A stretch of 64,000 nucleotides of DNA, from the NCBI RefSeq assembly GCF_000513295.1, contig NC_023065.1, forward strand, positions 1,922,001-1,986,000, written 5' to 3'. The DNA comes from Magnetospirillum gryphiswaldense MSR-1 v2. Its GTDB lineage: Bacteria > Pseudomonadota > Alphaproteobacteria > Rhodospirillales > Magnetospirillaceae. The stretch's first letter is position 1, and the number at the start of each line of letters is the position of its first letter. The notes beneath the pieces were generated by a model. That model did no database searches and had not been told where the DNA came from. It worked only from the letters and a program-made list of their open reading frames with translations. Of this stretch, positions 19,291 to 30,211 are shown one piece after another. Both the position numbers and the translations under genes were made by a program.

Positions 19291-19420
19291 TAAAATTGTC
19301 ATCAATTTGACGATAAATACTTGCGATTATTCCCTTGCATTACATCTATCCCAGCCCTATCAGCCTGTGCGGATAACACAAAAAGCGGCAACCGCAGGAT
19401 GTGTGGGGAGGGAGCAGATA

Positions 19421-19471
19421 ATGCACACGACAACCAGGATCACACCGCCCAGTCACCGAGGTCGGGCATGA
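19421..19471 (+). CDS. Leader ORF coupled to the EAL gene
   Basis: A 16-codon ORF (MHTTTRITPP and so on) with a strong GGGGAGGGAG ribosome-binding site about 7 nt before its ATG. Its TGA overlaps the ATG of the EAL-domain gene as ATGA. No similar ribosome-binding site serves the longer gene directly, so ribosomes probably reach it by termination-reinitiation. The ORF is too short to recognise and may act only in cis. Confidence 0.4.
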   Translation: MHTTTRITPPSHRGRA

Positions 19472-21192
19472 GCCGCCCGGCCCATGCCCGGCGACTGGAC
19501 ATCTATGTGGCTTTCGCCTTCGCCGCCGCCGATGTGTTGCTGGAAATCGACAAGGATGGACAAGTGCTCTTCGCCGTCGGTGCCGCCCGCGCCTTGCTGG
19601 GCTGGCCGGCGCGCGTGCTGTCCGGCATGCGCCTTGACGATTTGATCGCCCCCGCCGACCATGGCCGTGCCGCCGCCGCACTGGCGACCATGGCCCGGGG
19701 CGAGCGTGTGCGCAATTCGTCGGTTTCATTACGCAAACAGGACGGCAGCGTATCGCCCGGCCTGCTGTCTGGCTATCGTAGTCCCGATGATTCCACACAT
19801 CTTTTGGTGGTTCTGGGGCATTCTTCTTGCAGTTGCGCGCCCTTGGAACGAAGACTGGCGCAAAGCGGCCTCTTGGATCAGGACAGCTTTCAGGCCCGAA
19901 CCCGCCATCTGCTGGACCAGGACAGCAGCGACGCCCCCTATGTGCTGACCATGATCGATTTGCCGGAAATCCCCCGCCTGCGCCAGCAGGCGGGCACCGA
20001 ACAGACGGAAAGCATGGTCGCCGCCATCGGCGCCTACTTACGCGATCATTCCATCGGCGGCGACACCGCCGGTCAGTTCAACGACACCACCTATGGCTTG
20101 GTGCACGATTCTAATCTGGTGCGTGACGACATTTCCGCCGCCATCAATGACATCGCCCGCCAGACGGTGCCGGACGGCCCGCCCATGCTGGCCAAAACCC
20201 ATTCCATCACCCTGGACGTGGCCGACGCCTCGCCCGAGGAAGCCGCCGCCGCCCTGACCCACGCGGTCACCGGTTTTATCAACGATGGCGGTGGCGGCAC
20301 CCTGGCCGCCCTGTCCGCCGACCTGCAACCGCGCATGTCCGACGCCATGACCCGCATGCGCGCCTTGCGCCGGTTGATCGAGCGCGGTGACTTTCACATG
20401 GTGTTCCAGCCCATCGTCGATTTGTGGACCAACACCATCCAGCACATGGAATGTCTGGTGCGGCTGGGCGACAGCGACGCCACCCCGTTCGACACCGTCA
20501 CCTTCGCCGAAAGCATGGGCCTTGCCGGCCAGTTCGATCTGGCGGTGTGTGAGCGCATGTTCGCCATGATGCGCCAGGGACCGGCCTCGGACCCCGCCTT
20601 GAAATTCGCCATCAACCTGTCGGGCCGCACCCTGACCTCGCCCGACAGCACCAGCCGATTGCGTCGACTGCTGGACGGCGCCGCCGACCTGCGCGGCAGG
20701 GTATCGTTCGAGATCACCGAATCGGCGGCCATGGGCGAACTGGCCGCCGTCAATGCCCTGTTGCAGGAAATCCGGGCCAAGGGCTTTCCGGTCTGCCTCG
20801 ATGATTTCGGTGCCGGCGCCGCCGCTTTTCATTACCTGCGCGAACTCAAGGTCGATCACGTCAAGATCGACGGGCTTTACATCAAGAATGCCCTCAGGAG
20901 CGGCGAAAGCGTCTCGTTCATCAAGGCCATCGTCGGCCTGTGCGCGGAATTGGGCATCAGCACCACCGCCGAATGCGTGGAAGACCCGGAAACGGCAAAC
21001 CTGTTGAAGTTGCTTAAAGTAAAGCGCGGCCAAGGCTGGTATTTCGGCAAACCGTTCCGTCCGGCTCATATGGCCGCAGCCGACACCAAAACCCCCTGGG
21101 TTACCGCCCAAACATCCTGGCGCAATGGCTTGCTGTGCTTCGTCCCCCCCGATGGCAATCTGGGTCGCCTCGGTGCACCGTCGTCGCGGTGA
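19468..21192 (+). CDS. PAS / degenerate GGDEF / EAL signalling protein
   Basis: About 574 aa, cytoplasmic. An N-terminal PAS-like domain (residues about 15-110; VLLEIDKDGQVLFAVGAA) is followed by a region shaped like GGDEF but reading AGQFNDTTYGLV where RxGGDEF is expected, so no cyclase activity. The C-terminal EAL domain has ECLVRL in place of ExLxR, AINLSG, EITES, CLDDFGAG, VKIDG, AECVE and GQGWYFGKP. The metal and catalytic residues are thus mostly kept, and c-di-GMP hydrolysis is plausible. The start at 19468 overlaps a leader ORF; in-frame upstream starts (TTG 19321, ATG 19399) give a poorly conserved extension. The cysteine in place of Gly in AECVE is unusual. Confidence 0.82.
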   Translation: MSRPAHARRLDIYVAFAFAAADVLLEIDKDGQVLFAVGAARALLGWPARVLSGMRLDDLIAPADHGRAAAALATMARGERVRNSSVSLRKQDGSVSPGLLSGYRSPDDSTHLLVVLGHSSCSCAPLERRLAQSGLLDQDSFQARTRHLLDQDSSDAPYVLTMIDLPEIPRLRQQAGTEQTESMVAAIGAYLRDHSIGGDTAGQFNDTTYGLVHDSNLVRDDISAAINDIARQTVPDGPPMLAKTHSITLDVADASPEEAAAALTHAVTGFINDGGGGTLAALSADLQPRMSDAMTRMRALRRLIERGDFHMVFQPIVDLWTNTIQHMECLVRLGDSDATPFDTVTFAESMGLAGQFDLAVCERMFAMMRQGPASDPALKFAINLSGRTLTSPDSTSRLRRLLDGAADLRGRVSFEITESAAMGELAAVNALLQEIRAKGFPVCLDDFGAGAAAFHYLRELKVDHVKIDGLYIKNALRSGESVSFIKAIVGLCAELGISTTAECVEDPETANLLKLLKVKRGQGWYFGKPFRPAHMAAADTKTPWVTAQTSWRNGLLCFVPPDGNLGRLGAPSSR

Positions 21193-23485: not shown

Positions 23486-24952
23486 CTATTTCCCGTTCAT
23501 CTTCTTGATGGTGTTGGTAGTGCTTTGGCCTTCCACCAGATTGGCCAGCACCACCCGTCCGCCCCAACCGATGACGTCATCGGCTCCCACCACGGTCGCC
23601 ACCGTGTAATCGGCGCCCTTGACCAGGACATCGGGGCGCAAATGGCGGATCAGCTCCAAAGGCGTGTCCTCGCCGAAGATCACCACCATATCGACCATGG
23701 ACAGCGACGCCAGCACGGTGGCCCTGGCCGCTTCCGACTGCACCGGACGGGTCGGACCCTTGAGGCGGGCGACCGAGGCGTCGGAGTTCAGCCCCACCAC
23801 CAGCCGGTCGCACGCCGCCCGCGCCTGGGTCAGCAACGAGATATGGCCGGGATGCAACAGGTCGAAGCAGCCATTGGTGAAGCCGACGCTTTCACCCTTG
23901 CGGCGCCAGATTTCCACCTGATCGCGAGCACCCTCCCACCCCAGAACCTTGGTCTCGCCCAGGCACAAATCGTCGTGATGAAGGGCGGCGACCACCTCGT
24001 CGGCATAGGCGACGGCGGTGCCGACCTTGGCGACGACGATACCGGCGGCGACATTGGCCAGACGCGCGCCGTCCAGCAGCGAACCGCCGGCGGCCAGCAC
24101 GGCGGCCAAGGTGGCGACCACGGTGTCGCCGGCGCCCGAGACGTCGAACACCTCGCGCGCCTGGGCCGGCAGGTGATGCACCTGACCGTCATCGGTCACC
24201 AGGGTCATACCGTCCTGCGACCGGGTGGCCAACACCGCGCCGACGCCGCAAGAGGTGATCAGGTGGCGACAGGCGGCGACGATGCCGGCATCGTCCGCCA
24301 CGTTCATGCCGGTGGCCTCGAACAATTCCTTGCGATTGGGGGTCAGCACGGTGGCGCCGCGATAGCGGCTGTAATCCGTGCCCTTGGGATCGACCACCAC
24401 CGGCACGCCGCATTCCTTGGCCACCTTGATCAGTTCCGCCGGAACCGGCACCGACAAGACGCCCTTGCCGTAATCGGACAACACGACCGCGCCCGAACGC
24501 CCGATCAGGGTACCGGCCCGGTCCAGCACCTGACGCACGCTGGTGGCCGCCAGTGCCTGACTGGTCTCGCGGTCGGCCCGCAGCAATTGCTGGGCCGAGG
24601 CGAAAAAGCGGGTCTTGATGGTGGTCTGGCGCTGGCTTTCCACCACCAGACAGGGGTCGATGCCGGCATGGTCGCCCAGCAGCCGCCCGACTTCGCGCCC
24701 GGCATCGTCGTCGCCGACCACGGCGACGAAGGTGGGCACCGCCCCCAAGGCCACCAGATTGCGCACCACGTTGCCGGCCCCGCCCAGCATGGCCGCCTCG
24801 CGCTCGATGCGCAGCACCGGAATGGGCGCCTCGGGTGAAATGCGCTCGACCGCGCCATAGATGAAGCGATCCAGCATGGCGTCGCCGACGCACAACACTG
24901 GCTTGTCCTTCAAACCGGCGACCCGATCGGCCAGCACAGAAAGTTCGGTCAT
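23486..24952 (-). CDS. hldE: Bifunctional heptose-7-phosphate kinase / adenylyltransferase
   Basis: Makes ADP-heptose for the LPS inner core, about 488 aa. The N-terminal PfkB-type kinase has [11 protein letters not shown] and the anion hole [15 protein letters not shown] (near residue 265). The C-terminal nucleotidyltransferase begins near residue 345 with [17 protein letters not shown] and has [11 protein letters not shown] and VKGADY. ATG 24952 gives the usual [11 protein letters not shown] start; an in-frame TTG at 24976 is an alternative. It is 69 bp downstream of a metallophosphatase gene and abuts queF. Confidence 0.95.
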
Positions 24953-25021
24953 GGATTGATCCCGCGTGATGTCCAACCGGTCAGCTAACCCAAGGACAGC
25001 AGGGTTGCAAGAAAAATGCCT

Positions 25022-25783
25022 TCAGGTGCGGAGGAAGTCCCGCGATGCGCCGTGCAGAACCAGGGCGGTCAGACGATTGCTGTCATAGGCGCGGGTGTCG
25101 ATGCCGATACGGTTGTGCCGCACCTCAGGCTCTGGCGTTGGGGTGTGACCATGCACCACCACCTTGCCATGCCAACGCCCATCATCGAGAAATTCATGGC
25201 GTATCCACAGCAAATCCGCCGGGTCCTGATGCTCGAGCGCGATGCCGGGCCGGATACCGGCATGGACGAACAGGTAATCCCCTTCCTGATGACAGACCGG
25301 CAGACCGGCGAGGAAGTCGCGATGCGCTTTCGGCAGGTTGCGCGCCAACACGGCCTGCACCGCCTTGAGATCACGTTCCCACCCCGACGCCGGCAGGGAT
25401 GCGGCGTAAGAGCGCACGGTATCCAGACCGCCATAGGCGCACCACCCCCTGCCCACCGCCACATTATCGAGAAAATCCAGCATCACTTCTTCATGGTTGC
25501 CCTTCAGGCAAATCCACTGCGCCGCCGCCAGCGGTCCCGGCGGCGGACCAGCCATCAGACACTCCACCACCTGGCGCGAGTGCGGACCGCGATCAATGAA
25601 ATCGCCCAGAAAAACCAGGGCCAGACGCGCCGGTGCACGGCGCTCGACATCGGCGGCAATCAGTTCCAACAGTCCCCGCAACAGATCGACGCGGCCATGA
25701 ATATCGCCAATGGCGTAAACGCAGGCCCCCACAGGAACGCAAGGATTGTTGGAAGGATCGACCTGAGCTTCAGGACTGTTCAT
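25022..25783 (-). CDS. Metallophosphoesterase (serine/threonine phosphatase or ApaH-like)
   Basis: 253 aa, calcineurin-like fold. Metal-binding motifs appear in order: AIGDIHGRVDLL (residues about 24-35), GDFIDRGPHSRQVV (about 60), LKGNHEEVM (about 94), HAGIRPG and VVHGHTP. This is the pattern of PrpA/PrpE-type protein phosphatases and symmetrical Ap4A hydrolases. The substrate cannot be told from sequence. It lies upstream of hldE on the same strand and could be in that operon, though without overlap. Confidence 0.88.
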   Translation of the reverse strand: MNSPEAQVDPSNNPCVPVGACVYAIGDIHGRVDLLRGLLELIAADVERRAPARLALVFLGDFIDRGPHSRQVVECLMAGPPPGPLAAAQWICLKGNHEEVMLDFLDNVAVGRGWCAYGGLDTVRSYAASLPASGWERDLKAVQAVLARNLPKAHRDFLAGLPVCHQEGDYLFVHAGIRPGIALEHQDPADLLWIRHEFLDDGRWHGKVVVHGHTPTPEPEVRHNRIGIDTRAYDSNRLTALVLHGASRDFLRT

Positions 25784-25904
25784 TTCGTTCTAGGCGCTCC
25801 AGCCGGGTCGTTGTATTTTGGACCCCAATGAACTTTGCCCGTTTACACGCGCAAGGACAACGCCGCCGGATCAGTCCCGGCGGTTTCGCCAGAATGGGGA
25901 ACAG

Positions 25905-27233
25905 ATGAACGCGACCGCGTTCGGGGACAAACCGCAGGAAATCGTAACGTCGGAGAACCTTCTCTACGACGCCGCCGAACGCGTGGGCCGCATCCGTGAA
26001 GGGCGCCAGGCGCTGCATCTGCATCTGTCGCGGCTGCTGCCGCCCAACCGCGAGGAAGCGAAGATCCGCATCGCCTTCCGCATGTTCGAGACCATGGTCG
26101 ACATGTTCCGCGGCCAGATGTTCCTGTTGACCAACAACGACATCATGCTGATCTGCAAGGATGCCCGGCTGGCCGATCTGGACGCCATCGTCTACAAGCT
26201 GCGCGCCTTGTTCTCGAAAGACCCGCTGACCTATGCCGAGGTGGATGGCGAAGATCGCTTCGTCACCTTCTACGACCTGGAAAGCGAGTACGATTCCTTC
26301 TTCGCCGTCTGCGCCCAGTTGTTGAACGAGGCGAAGAAGCGTGTGGTCCAGAACCGCAACGCGGCGCCGGTGCAGCCCCTGGACGCCCGCAACCTGACCA
26401 AGGTGCTCGAGCGCATCGGCGTCACCGATATCGCCGGCGTCGTCCGCCGCCAGCCCTGCGTGCGTTTTTCCGAAAAACAGACGGCGGAAGTGGCGTTTCA
26501 GGAATTCTACATGTCGATCATGGATCTGCAGAAGATCCTGGCCCCCGACGTCAATATCCTGGCCAATCGCTGGCTGTTCCAACATTTGTCGCAGGTGCTG
26601 GACCTGCGGGTGTTGTCGGTGCTGCAAGATGCCGGCTTCCGCAAGACGCCCACCGCGTTTTCCGTCAACCTCAATATGGCCACCATCGAAACCCAGATGT
26701 TCCGCCAGTTCGAGGCCGCCATTCGCGGCAAGGCCGGGCTGGTGGTGGAATTCCAACTGGTGGACATCTTCAACAATCTGGACGGCTTCTTCCGCGCCCG
26801 CGATTACCTGCGCGCGCGCGGTCACAAGACCGTGCTGGACGGCATGAGCCCGATCACCTTGCAGTTCATGGACGCCGAGCGTTACGACTGCGACTACGTC
26901 AAGATCAACTGGAGCCAGGACATGGCCGACGACGTGGTCACCGCCGAATTGCACCACGCCCTTGGTCCGTTGGGCTTCCATCGCGTCATCCTGGCCCGCT
27001 GCGACACCGAAACCTCGATCACCTGGGGGCTCAACCAGGGCATCCACTATTTCCAGGGCCGCTTCCTAGATTCCATGGTCGCCGCCGTGACCATGGCCCA
27101 ATGCGACAAGGCCAGCGCCTGCACCTTGGTCCAATGCAACCAGCGCCATGGGGTGATTTCGGGCCGGTTGCGGGTCGATTGCGGCAACAACGACATGCTG
27201 GACACGTTCCCGCCGCTCAAGGCCCTGAGGTAG
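25905..27233 (+). CDS. Degenerate EAL-domain protein, copy 1 of a tandem pair
   Basis: 442 aa, not previously named. The N-terminal half (residues about 20-130) has a helical region and FLLTNNDIMLICKDARLADL. From about residue 185 the spacing follows an EAL domain, but motifs are changed: EFY at the EAL position, VNLNMAT for INLS, EFQLVDI for EITE, VLDGMSP for LDDFGxG. Further on, DYVKINW stands for VKID and GIHYFQGRF for the QGY end. Most metal-binding acids are gone, so c-di-GMP hydrolysis is unlikely; binding or scaffolding is possible. ATG 25905 follows GGGGA. A clear paralogue starts 7 bp after its stop. Confidence 0.75.
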   Translation: MNATAFGDKPQEIVTSENLLYDAAERVGRIREGRQALHLHLSRLLPPNREEAKIRIAFRMFETMVDMFRGQMFLLTNNDIMLICKDARLADLDAIVYKLRALFSKDPLTYAEVDGEDRFVTFYDLESEYDSFFAVCAQLLNEAKKRVVQNRNAAPVQPLDARNLTKVLERIGVTDIAGVVRRQPCVRFSEKQTAEVAFQEFYMSIMDLQKILAPDVNILANRWLFQHLSQVLDLRVLSVLQDAGFRKTPTAFSVNLNMATIETQMFRQFEAAIRGKAGLVVEFQLVDIFNNLDGFFRARDYLRARGHKTVLDGMSPITLQFMDAERYDCDYVKINWSQDMADDVVTAELHHALGPLGFHRVILARCDTETSITWGLNQGIHYFQGRFLDSMVAAVTMAQCDKASACTLVQCNQRHGVISGRLRVDCGNNDMLDTFPPLKALR

Positions 27234-27240
27234 GTCGCCC

Positions 27241-28488
27241 ATGCTTGGAAGCCCGCCCATCGCCAAAGCCCGTGTCGCCAGCCAGGAACACCTGCTGCTG
27301 GATTATCTGAACCGTTTGGAACGCCACCGGTCCGACCGCCGCGCCGTGCACATCCACCTGTCGGGATTGTCCAAGCAGAACCAGCGCGAGCAGCATTTGC
27401 GCATCGCCGCCGCCACCTTCGACAATCTGGTCAAGATGCTGCAAGCCCAGGCCTTCACCCTGGGCAACGCCGACCTGATGGTGGTCTACAAGGCTCAGGC
27501 CCAGGACGAGGTCGAATCGTCCATCGTCAAGCTGCGCTTTTTGTTTTCCGACGACCAGTTGATCATCGACGACGCGCAGAAGGGCACGTTGTGCACCTGG
27601 TACGACCTGGAAAAGGAATACGACGTCCTGGTCGCCCTGGCCCAGCGCATGCTGGCCGAGGAACAGGCGCGGCGCCGGGCCGAGCAGGAACAGGCCGGGC
27701 TGGAAATGCGCGCCCTGGCCAAACCCAAGGGCGCGCCGTTCACGCCGGAATTGTTGGCCCGGGTCGAAGCCGGACTGGGACAGGCCGACCTGTCCAATCT
27801 GATGCGCCGCCAGGCGGTGTGCGCCATCGTCGGACAGTCGCCGCCGCAACCGGTCTTCCACGAATTGTTCATTTCCATCGCCGATCTGCGGCAAACGTTG
27901 ATGCCCAACGTCAACATGAATTCCAGCCCCTGGCTGTTCCAGCAATTGACGGAGACCCTGGACCGCCGGGTACTGTCCTTGCTCAACAAGCACGACGACC
28001 GCACCTTGGAAGGCGACATCAGCATCAATCTGAACGTGTCGACCATCCTGTCGCCGGAATTCATGGTGTTTGACGATAACGTCAAGGCCGGTATGCGCGG
28101 CACCATCGTGCTGGAACTGCAAAAGGTCGATATCTTCGCCGATCTGGGCGCCTATCTGTTCGCCCGCGACTTCGCCCACGACCGCGGCTATCGCATTTGC
28201 GTCGACGGTCTGGCCTATTCCATGCTGCCCTTCGTCGACCGCGAGCGGCTGGGCGCCGACCTGATCAAGCTGATCTGGGATCCGTCGCTGACCGACGAGA
28301 AGGACCAGAAGACCGACGCGTTGCGCCGGATCGGCGTCACCCGCATCATCCTGGCCCGCTGCGACACGCCGTCGGCCATCGAATACGGCCATTCGGTCGG
28401 CATCACCTTGTTCCAGGGCCGCCATGTGGAACAGACGCTGATGAATGATGTCAGGCGTCGCGGCATTGGCCGCGCCAGACCAAGATAA
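27241..28488 (+). CDS. Degenerate EAL-domain protein, copy 2 of a tandem pair
   Basis: 415 aa, paralogue of the gene just upstream. Shared features are the N-terminal RAVHIHLSGL, FTLGNADLMVVYKA and TWYDLEKEYDVL. The eroded EAL region reads HELFISIADL at the EAL position, INLNVST, VDIFADLGAY, VDGLAY, DLIKLIWD and GITLFQGRH. Catalytic acids are again missing. GAGGTAGG sits before ATG 27241. Both genes must be co-transcribed. The 3' end lies inside a 30-bp tandem duplication that includes the stop codon, so the final IGRARPR may be a recent alteration. Confidence 0.75.
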   Translation: MLGSPPIAKARVASQEHLLLDYLNRLERHRSDRRAVHIHLSGLSKQNQREQHLRIAAATFDNLVKMLQAQAFTLGNADLMVVYKAQAQDEVESSIVKLRFLFSDDQLIIDDAQKGTLCTWYDLEKEYDVLVALAQRMLAEEQARRRAEQEQAGLEMRALAKPKGAPFTPELLARVEAGLGQADLSNLMRRQAVCAIVGQSPPQPVFHELFISIADLRQTLMPNVNMNSSPWLFQQLTETLDRRVLSLLNKHDDRTLEGDISINLNVSTILSPEFMVFDDNVKAGMRGTIVLELQKVDIFADLGAYLFARDFAHDRGYRICVDGLAYSMLPFVDRERLGADLIKLIWDPSLTDEKDQKTDALRRIGVTRIILARCDTPSAIEYGHSVGITLFQGRHVEQTLMNDVRRRGIGRARPR

Positions 28489-28521
28489 TTGGGCATTGGC
28501 CGCGCCAGACCAAGATAATTG
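28462..28521. repeat. Perfect 2 x 30-bp tandem duplication across a stop codon
   Basis: Two identical 30-bp units, 28462-28491 and 28492-28521, each starting GGCATTGGCCGCGCC and ending GATAATTG. The first copy contains the TAA of the second degenerate EAL gene. Absence of any mismatch suggests a recent event. Confidence 0.95.
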
Positions 28522-28536
28522 ACGGCAAACACAACA

Positions 28537-28565
28537 AACCCGGCTTGGAATATCCCAGCCGGGTT
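28537..28565 (-). terminator. Hairpin terminator downstream of the flaF-like gene
   Basis: AACCCGGCT / AGCCGGGTT (9 bp, extended by two pairs after a mismatch). On the minus strand it is followed by a T-rich run (TTGTTGTGTTT). It lies about 57 bp past the FlaF-like stop and also after the convergent EAL gene, so it can serve both. Confidence 0.5.
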
Positions 28566-28621
28566 GGCGTTCGTGCCGAAGGGAAAGCCGGAACTCTCTC
28601 CGGCATCCCGTGGCAGCGAGA

Positions 28622-28954
28622 TTAGACCTTGTTGCCTTCCAACAGACCTTCGGAAATCTGCAGGTTGACGTTGATCAGCGCGTCGATGCTGGCATCGGTG
28701 GCGGCGGCGGCGCCAGCTATGGTCTTTTCAGCGACGAAATTGGCCAGACGGATCAGATTTTCCACCACCTGCGACGAGGCCGAGCAGCCGTCGCTGGTGA
28801 TCAGGGTGCGCAAAGCCACCCACACCGCCATGTTCAGCTCCAACGCTTCCTCCAGCTTGGAACGGTCGGCCTTGGCCTGATCCAGCATGATGGCGGCGCG
28901 GGACAATTGAAAGGCCTGTTCCTCGATGGCGGACAGAGTAGTCGTGTCGGACAT
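28622..28954 (-). CDS. FlaF-like flagellar regulator
   Basis: 110 aa, all helical. The middle ALELNMAVWVALRTLI, ENLIRLANFVAEKT and the C-terminal SIDALINVNLQISEGLL follow the pattern of the alphaproteobacterial FlaF family, which helps FlbT control flagellin translation or secretion. No flbT or flagellin gene is in the window, so the assignment rests on sequence pattern alone. The start codon is an ATG with AGGAGGAACC upstream. It is convergent to the degenerate EAL pair. Confidence 0.6.
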   Translation of the reverse strand: MSDTTTLSAIEEQAFQLSRAAIMLDQAKADRSKLEEALELNMAVWVALRTLITSDGCSASSQVVENLIRLANFVAEKTIAGAAAATDASIDALINVNLQISEGLLEGNKV

Positions 28955-29185
28955 GGTTCCTCCTGCTTGGATGCGGCGGCGGCTTTGATGCGCCTGCCGA
29001 AAGCATTAGTAAAATCAACCGGGGGAAACCTAATCGATCCATTGATAAGGACCGTTGCCGGAAGCCCTAAAAAACTTACTCCCTTTCCCCCCAAGGCGCA
29101 ACGGCCCACAAAATCAACGAATTGTGCATTTATTCATGGCAGCTTAGGGTTAAGTCTTTCTGAACTCAGCCGGAGCAAGCCTGAC

Positions 29186-30211
29186 ATGTCGATTTTGGTC
29201 ACCGGGGCGGCTGGCTTTATCGGGTCCGCCCTGTGTCGCCAGCTGACCGCGCGGGGGGACGAGACCGTCATTGCCCTTGACCGTCTGGGCTATGCCGCCT
29301 GCCTGCAGGCCCTGCCCGCCCAGGCCGTCTTCATCCAGGCCGATATCCGCGACGCCACCGCCCTGGATGCCGTCTTCGCCCAGCACGCCCCGCGTGCGGT
29401 GTTTCATCTGGCGGCGGAAACCCATGTGGATCGTTCCATCGACACTCCGCTCGAGTTCATTGAACACAACATGGTCGGCACCTTCCAATTGCTGGAAGCG
29501 ACGCGGCGGTTCTGGGGGGAGCGGGGGCGGCCCGACGACTTCCGCTTTGTCCACGTTTCCACTGACGAAGTGTTCGGCAGCCTGGAGGCGGACGAGCCGG
29601 CCTTCACCGCCAGCTCACCCTATCGCCCCAATTCGCCCTATTCAGCCAGTAAGGCGGCGGCGGACCACTTGGCGCGGGCATGGATGGCCACCTACGGGTT
29701 GCCGGTGATCGTCACCAATTGCAGCAATAATTATGGCCCCTGGCAGTTCCCGGAAAAGCTGATGCCGCTGGTGATCCAAAAGGCCTTGGCCGGTCACCCC
29801 CTGCCCCTTTATGGCGATGGCGGCAACCGGCGTGACTGGCTTTATGTGGACGACCACGCCGCCGGCCTGATGGCCGTCTTGGACCACGGCGAGCCGGGGG
29901 GCACCTATCTGTTTGGATCGGGGCGCGAACACAGCAATCTGGAGGTGGTCAAGGCCATCTGCGCCCAATTGGATCAATGGCGTCCCGATCCGGTCGGCCC
30001 TTATGCCCGCCTGATCCAGTTCGTCACCGACCGTCCGGGACATGACCGCCGCTACGGTATCGATCCCAGCCATGCCCGCCGCGCCCTGGACTGGCAGCCG
30101 CGCACCGATTTCGCCGACGGCATCGCCGCCACCATCCGCTGGTGCCTGGACCATCCGCACTGGGCCAACCGCGATTATCACGGCGCCCGCCTGGGCCTGA
30201 TACCAAGTTAA
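29186..30211 (+). CDS. dTDP-glucose 4,6-dehydratase-type epimerase/dehydratase
   Basis: 341 aa extended-SDR enzyme. It has the N-terminal GAAGFIGSALC NAD loop, HLAAETHVDRSI, the catalytic VSTDEVFGSL and the YSASKAAADHL Tyr/Lys. SNNYGPWQFPEKLMPLVI and DWLYVDDHA follow, all diagnostic of RmlB (RfbB). It makes dTDP-4-keto-6-deoxyglucose for surface polysaccharide. No other rml genes are nearby, so the sugar made is unknown. The open frame runs far upstream, but ATG 29186 with CGGAG about 10 nt before it gives the normal N-terminus. Its stop overlaps the convergent synthetase gene by 4 nt. Confidence 0.88.
   Translation: MSILVTGAAGFIGSALCRQLTARGDETVIALDRLGYAACLQALPAQAVFIQADIRDATALDAVFAQHAPRAVFHLAAETHVDRSIDTPLEFIEHNMVGTFQLLEATRRFWGERGRPDDFRFVHVSTDEVFGSLEADEPAFTASSPYRPNSPYSASKAAADHLARAWMATYGLPVIVTNCSNNYGPWQFPEKLMPLVIQKALAGHPLPLYGDGGNRRDWLYVDDHAAGLMAVLDHGEPGGTYLFGSGREHSNLEVVKAICAQLDQWRPDPVGPYARLIQFVTDRPGHDRRYGIDPSHARRALDWQPRTDFADGIAATIRWCLDHPHWANRDYHGARLGLIPS

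Follow-up and report, generated by a model that had tools for sequence, protein, structure and literature searches.

Two adjacent genes, here called A and B, lie on the forward strand within the window, the 64,000-nucleotide stretch of the Magnetospirillum gryphiswaldense MSR-1 genome that was analysed. Gene A (25905..27233, +) encodes a protein of 442 aa in which a GGDEF-like domain that is probably degenerate is followed by a putatively non-catalytic EAL domain and a cysteine tail, and gene B (27241..28488, +) encodes a protein of 415 aa with the same two domains. Both are intact open reading frames with A upstream, separated by a gap of 7 bp, and their products are paralogues that share 35% identity over their full length. 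The original prediction had described two such neighbouring genes whose N-terminal domains resemble each other and whose motifs read EFY/ELF where EAL is expected and VKIN/LIKL where KID is expected, all of which we see as well. A membrane segment is predicted in neither protein, NCBIfam assigns neither to a family, and the Pfam EAL matches fall below the curated cut-off (E=0.014 for A and E=2.8e-4 for B). At Pfam E values up to 0.1, the EAL domain was matched by 46 of 48 B-type and single-copy members of the protein family and by 27 of 33 A-type members. The nearest named homologous loci are mostly from Magnetospirillum. A perfect 30-bp tandem duplication (GGCATTGGCCGCGCCAGACCAAGATAATTG, present twice) runs across the stop codon of B at 28462-28521, a partial second copy of this repeat also lies 3' of B in locus L004, and Rfam gave no match in 24500-29500.

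Genome-wide (4.4 Mb), the Pfam cut-off is exceeded by 51 GGDEF and 26 EAL domains, and within the window a canonical-looking EAL protein (ECL, EITE, DDFG, KID and AECVE; 19321-21192, +) is encoded about 4.7 kb upstream of the pair. A third paralogue, with 25% identity to A, lies elsewhere in the genome (G000:C1:2618616-2619779, corresponding to L003 1492-2664 on the minus strand). This copy is more EAL-like, with a significant Pfam match (E=2.5e-11); it adjoins a bacteriohemerythrin gene, and its neighbours in the tree are L095-L097.

By profile and model, the EAL barrel fold is present in the C-terminal part of the pair. In A, a non-catalytic EAL domain at about residues 158-395 (26376..27089, +) is assigned from Pfam, alignment, hhalign and comparison of the protein-family profile with EAL domains in the PDB, and in B the barrel at residues 165-406 (27733..28458, +) is assigned from AF2, hhalign, Foldseek and VIA. 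Of the two proteins only B was modelled; AF2 predicts residues 165-406 as a barrel with pLDDT mostly 70-91, and residues 1-139 of the full-length model have pLDDT under 50. Foldseek with the B model placed the FimX EAL domain on top (E=4.3e-9), and VIA placed a LapD-c-di-GMP chain on top (6pwk_B, Z 17.6, rmsd 3.0, 214 aligned). The EAL domains of LapD and FimX reach Z of about 16-18 in VIA, other EAL chains reach 14-16, and rank 50 still has Z 14.4; since many EAL chains score nearly as high, the ranking of LapD and FimX expresses a nominal preference only. The protein-family profile aligns to canonical EAL proteins of the same genome in hhalign with E=7.8e-7, and when the profile of B-type and single-copy proteins is compared with solved EAL domains, the positions that coincide are N, EITE (first E), DDFG (first D), KID (K) and QG. 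A PDB sequence search with A alone as query returned nothing useful, and the search with the protein-family profile reached two EAL chains. Together, the predicted barrel of B, its Foldseek and VIA matches and the profile matches bear out the EAL-like fold that had been proposed for the pair.

The EAL site was read from an alignment of 160 protein-family rows (66 A, 66 B, 27 single-copy and one third paralogue), in which near neighbours are over-represented. Across the A, B and single-copy rows there is no variation at Q183, E200, N255, E282, D312, K333, Q384 and G385 (A numbering), which fall at YQP (Q), EAL (E), N, EITE (first E), DDFG (first D), KID (K) and QG. The E, N, E and D of this series we take to be the metal-1 ligand set, by the ligand roles established for RocR and TBD1265. 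Strand order and spacing are the basis for assigning the Q and the E, because the PDB alignment begins downstream of both; the distance between them is 17 in A and B and 14 in RocR. Other motif residues are lost. The second D of DDFG has become Gly in about 95% of rows (G313 in A), the Arg of ExLxR (EALxR) has become Ser in 56 of 66 A and 66 of 66 B sequences, and the first E of AEGVE is mostly Ala, Cys or Ser, with the motif near-fixed as [AC]-R-C-D (A364-R365-C366-D367 in A); EITE has also lost its second E and KID its D, and the DFG(T/A)G loop is gone. The Arg of [AC]-R-C-D was ruled out as a substitute for the first Glu of AEGVE by the profile alignment with a solved EAL domain and by the 20-residue spacing between the Glu position and the Gln, and it sits at the Gly position after that Glu. 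Every residue lost in A and B is present in 20 of 20 canonical EAL proteins encoded elsewhere in this genome, which were picked by their EAL and DDFG patterns, so that the conservation of those two motifs in these controls is partly due to the way they were selected.

As aligned, the site of A and B retains the metal-1 ligands, and the second-metal, base and loop-6 residues are gone. The original prediction, that metal and catalytic residues had been lost, therefore holds for the second-metal and catalytic residues but not for the metal-1 set, which is invariant in about 160 homologues. In TBD1265, the E703A mutation of the first Glu of ExxE abolishes phosphodiesterase activity, while the second Glu does not matter (PMC12943098). 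Given this inactive first-Glu mutant and the losses of catalytic residues, A and B are in all likelihood catalytically dead. Because the pocket residues have been kept without exception over a very long time, the two proteins are probably sensors or adaptors rather than broken enzymes, though the invariant pocket residues could also be structural.

The N-terminal domain, which the original prediction had left as unrecognised, is probably a shrunken, degenerate GGDEF domain. In A it spans residues 15-150 (25947..26354, +) by alignment and hhalign, with the fold modelled on the B copy only, and in B it spans residues 14-160 (27280..27720, +), where hhalign, AF2, Foldseek and VIA point to a ferredoxin-like or shrunken GGDEF fold. 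HxHLS on the first strand (A 38-42) and NxD at the turn (A 77-79) are strongly conserved, and in hhalign the domain aligns colinearly to GGDEF domains from this genome, which places the near-invariant D79 at the GGDEF turn. The hhalign GGDEF score of 25.4 carries a probability of only 16.5, and it lies above both 150 column shuffles (12.4+-2.2, maximum 20.9) and 60 block shuffles (15.4+-2.1, maximum 23.0). Pfam GGDEF had no match in A, in B or in the protein-family members scanned. Modelled alone, the B domain reached pLDDT 80.9 with the order a-b-a-b-b-a-b, in agreement with GGDEF topology, two of the five models being poor (47.9 and 47.5); Foldseek with this model placed a GGDEF domain weakly on top (E=0.05), and VIA returned generic ferredoxin-like folds with Z under 8 (top Z 7.8). 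As VIA gave generic folds only, the case for a GGDEF identity is made by profile similarity, topology and the order of the domains, and the assignment is statistically suggestive, short of decisive.

A four-cysteine motif follows the EAL domain of A (C400-x5-C406-x4-C411-x14-C426; 27102..27182, +) and looks like a structural metal site, a putative zinc knuckle. Within one A branch the consensus of this tail is C-x5-C-[ST]-x3-C-x2-[RK]...G...R-x2-C, and it occurs in the window's own taxonomic family, at L052, L054 and L057, and beyond the order at four loci. The other A branch and B do not have it, and the motif occurs in no other ORF of the compared loci or of the window.

Within the taxonomic family, 54 of 55 genomes have a match, and A lies directly upstream of B in 50 of 55, as read by eye. 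The exceptions, one genome each, have A and B on different contigs, a pair broken by contig ends, a damaged A-like copy alone, a distant paralogue alone or, in a genome of 0.9 Mb, no match at all. Matches were found in 218 of 248 genomes of the order, where 28 of the 29 loci read are tandem (these loci having been chosen for a B match), and in 112 of 385 genomes of a class sample, in which most of the matching genomes outside the order have a single copy; at four loci that belong to other families the genes are tandem as well. Every match in a phylum sample comes from Alphaproteobacteria, the number of sampled genomes beyond the class not being shown. A scan of viral contigs with the protein-family profile found no relative, and the copies found in a plasmid search were all distant ones from Azospirillum, whose annotation was uninformative. 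In a tree built by a quick method, with SH-aLRT supports only, the A sequences form one clade (support 99) and the B sequences another (support 99) save for two loci with a split pair, and the single copies lie outside both. As these sequences are read here, A and B come from one old duplication and have been side by side since. Against two relatives, A has a dN/dS of 0.10-0.15 and B one of 0.08-0.12 (dS 0.40-0.52), values that indicate purifying selection on both genes, which are therefore not decaying. These values and the wide co-retention agree with the earlier claim that both copies are conserved, and since an EAL-like barrel is found and the tandem persists in relatives across the family and the order, the proposal of a conserved EAL-type pair survives.

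Three loci stand apart in these comparisons. A is frameshifted and B intact in relative G001 (L042). A MAG labelled Stygiobacter (L004 5001-7584) carries a pair 98-99% identical to that of the MSR-1 genome, and its scaffold is for that reason probably misbinned Magnetospirillum DNA. In L008 (6330-6460), A and B are separated by a palindromic stretch that contains NN and is probably a scaffolding artefact.

Nothing so far shows a new mechanism at this locus. A and B are probably a known kind of protein, the inactive GGDEF-EAL protein, in an unusual form, namely an ancient co-inherited tandem with an odd retention of residues. The canonical GGDEF-EAL phosphodiesterases of the same genome have the same domain order and barrel, but their catalytic set is complete, while that of A and B is incomplete. 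LapD and FimX combine a degenerate GGDEF with a following degenerate EAL domain, as A and B probably do, and in structural searches with the EAL part they are the nominal top matches. Both are described as binding c-di-GMP via ExLxR with the Arg kept (PMC12564702), and the c-di-GMP contacts of FimX include R481 and E653 (PMC7288161). In A and B, by contrast, the equivalents of the ExLxR Arg and of FimX E653 are gone and the metal-1 ligands are kept; A and B also lack membrane, HAMP, PAS and REC parts, and they are a paralogous tandem pair. Because the ExLxR Arg is replaced by Ser and the E653 equivalent by Ala, Cys or Ser, ordinary c-di-GMP binding by A and B is doubtful and, to judge from these residues, less secure than originally implied. 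TipF of Caulobacter is a degenerate EAL receptor for c-di-GMP that functions in flagellar placement and does not degrade c-di-GMP (PMC7987155). As described, TipF resembles A and B in being alphaproteobacterial and in its degenerate EAL domain, but the N-terminal domain of A and B is GGDEF-like, and neither protein is predicted to have a membrane segment. Stand-alone inactive EAL proteins of the YdiV/BvgR type are short and soluble with eroded EAL motifs, as are A and B; compared with what is generally known of that type, A and B differ in their additional N-terminal domain, their conserved pocket and the presence of a tandem second copy.

The best reading overall, to which we would give about even weight, is that A and B are a non-catalytic receptor/adaptor pair. 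Building on the EAL fold, the residue pattern, the single duplication, the persistent tandem and purifying selection, we infer ligand binding, a heterodimer and a signal output. A single alphaproteobacterial ancestor, with a shrunken GGDEF-like domain and a non-catalytic EAL domain, would have been duplicated once, and the pair inherited in tandem. The EAL pocket (metal-1 E, N, E and D, together with K and Q) would bind a ligand, either alone or together with one divalent metal, and binding would be passed on as a conformational or binding signal, as in LapD and FimX. The ligand would most plausibly be c-di-GMP or a related nucleotide; for c-di-GMP itself, the chances fall a little short of even. 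A and B probably act together, perhaps as a heterodimer in place of the homodimer of the single-copy ancestor, although whether an A:B heterodimer forms is evenly balanced.

The strongest competitor is a pure protein-protein scaffold, in which both EAL domains bind a partner and no longer any nucleotide; YdiV, an inactive EAL adaptor, binds FlhD. In favour of such a scaffold, known c-di-GMP contacts disappear with the ExLxR Arg, loop 6 and the first Glu of AEGVE, but seven pocket residues that never vary are more than fold upkeep would be expected to need. We regard a pure scaffold as rather unlikely, and judge it somewhat more probable that A and B are ligand-binding receptors.

The genomic neighbourhood bears on where a signal might go. 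A DrrA/NatA-like ABC ATPase gene and an ABC-2 permease gene lie directly 3' of B, often overlapping or within 30 bp, in most family loci and in about 12 order loci outside the family; order loci with this arrangement include L056, L058-L060, L062, L063, L066 and L075. In L078, the exporter lies about 2.2 kb downstream of a single-type copy. This operon partnership in many relatives would fit regulators of the ABC-2 exporter for which any ligand is secondary, but about half of the non-family order loci have no exporter beside the pair, and in the MSR-1 genome the orthologous permease, with the ATPase beside it, is at G000:C1:4267328, not adjacent to A and B, the exporter of the nearest relatives being likewise elsewhere; we consider this explanation unlikely. 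Upstream and divergent, metallophosphatase, nucleotide-sugar epimerase and hldE-type heptose genes each recur in about 20 loci, and together with the exporter they suggest an envelope setting; the neighbourhood pattern may also be passive synteny. Single-copy relatives (L078, L081, L085, L086 and L105) are often near a RegA/RegB-like redox two-component pair (clusters 18/19, named by eye).

For the receptor/adaptor pair, the signal output would probably be at the cell envelope, because the ancestral operon seems to include the ABC-2 exporter, with output through that exporter itself being improbable. Less probable still is a paired nucleotide/metal sensor, in which an obligate A:B unit would have arisen from a homodimer, metal-1-only pockets would take a ligand other than c-di-GMP, HxH...D at the converted GGDEF site and the four-Cys tail of A would form further metal sites, and the pair would gate an envelope exporter.

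An active phosphodiesterase whose catalytic residues have been rearranged (Arg365/Asp367 standing in for the Glu pair, for example) and whose substrate is c-di-GMP or some other phosphodiester would accommodate the intact metal-1 ligands, Lys and Gln and the new near-invariant Arg-Cys-Asp at the AEGVE site, but A and B retain neither a general base nor a ligand for the second metal, and TBD1265 E703A is inactive (PMC12943098), so we rate this as very improbable. A flagellar role like that of TipF is hinted at by a lone FlaF family gene directly downstream of B (28622-28954, -; PF07309, E=3.3e-11) and by the part that degenerate EAL proteins such as TipF play in flagellar placement (PMC7987155), but the FlaF cluster is absent from the 30 commonest neighbour families of 60 loci and neither A nor B has a predicted membrane segment, which makes it just as hard to credit.

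No published study of A or B was found in the open literature searched. The protein family is widespread in Alphaproteobacteria and common in the order, yet A and B have no NCBIfam family and fall below the Pfam EAL cut-off. With the metal-1 half of the site kept and contacts described for LapD and FimX lost, these proteins make it possible to test cleanly which functions an EAL pocket can have once catalysis is gone, and the tandem is a natural case of possible evolution from a homodimer to a heterodimer.
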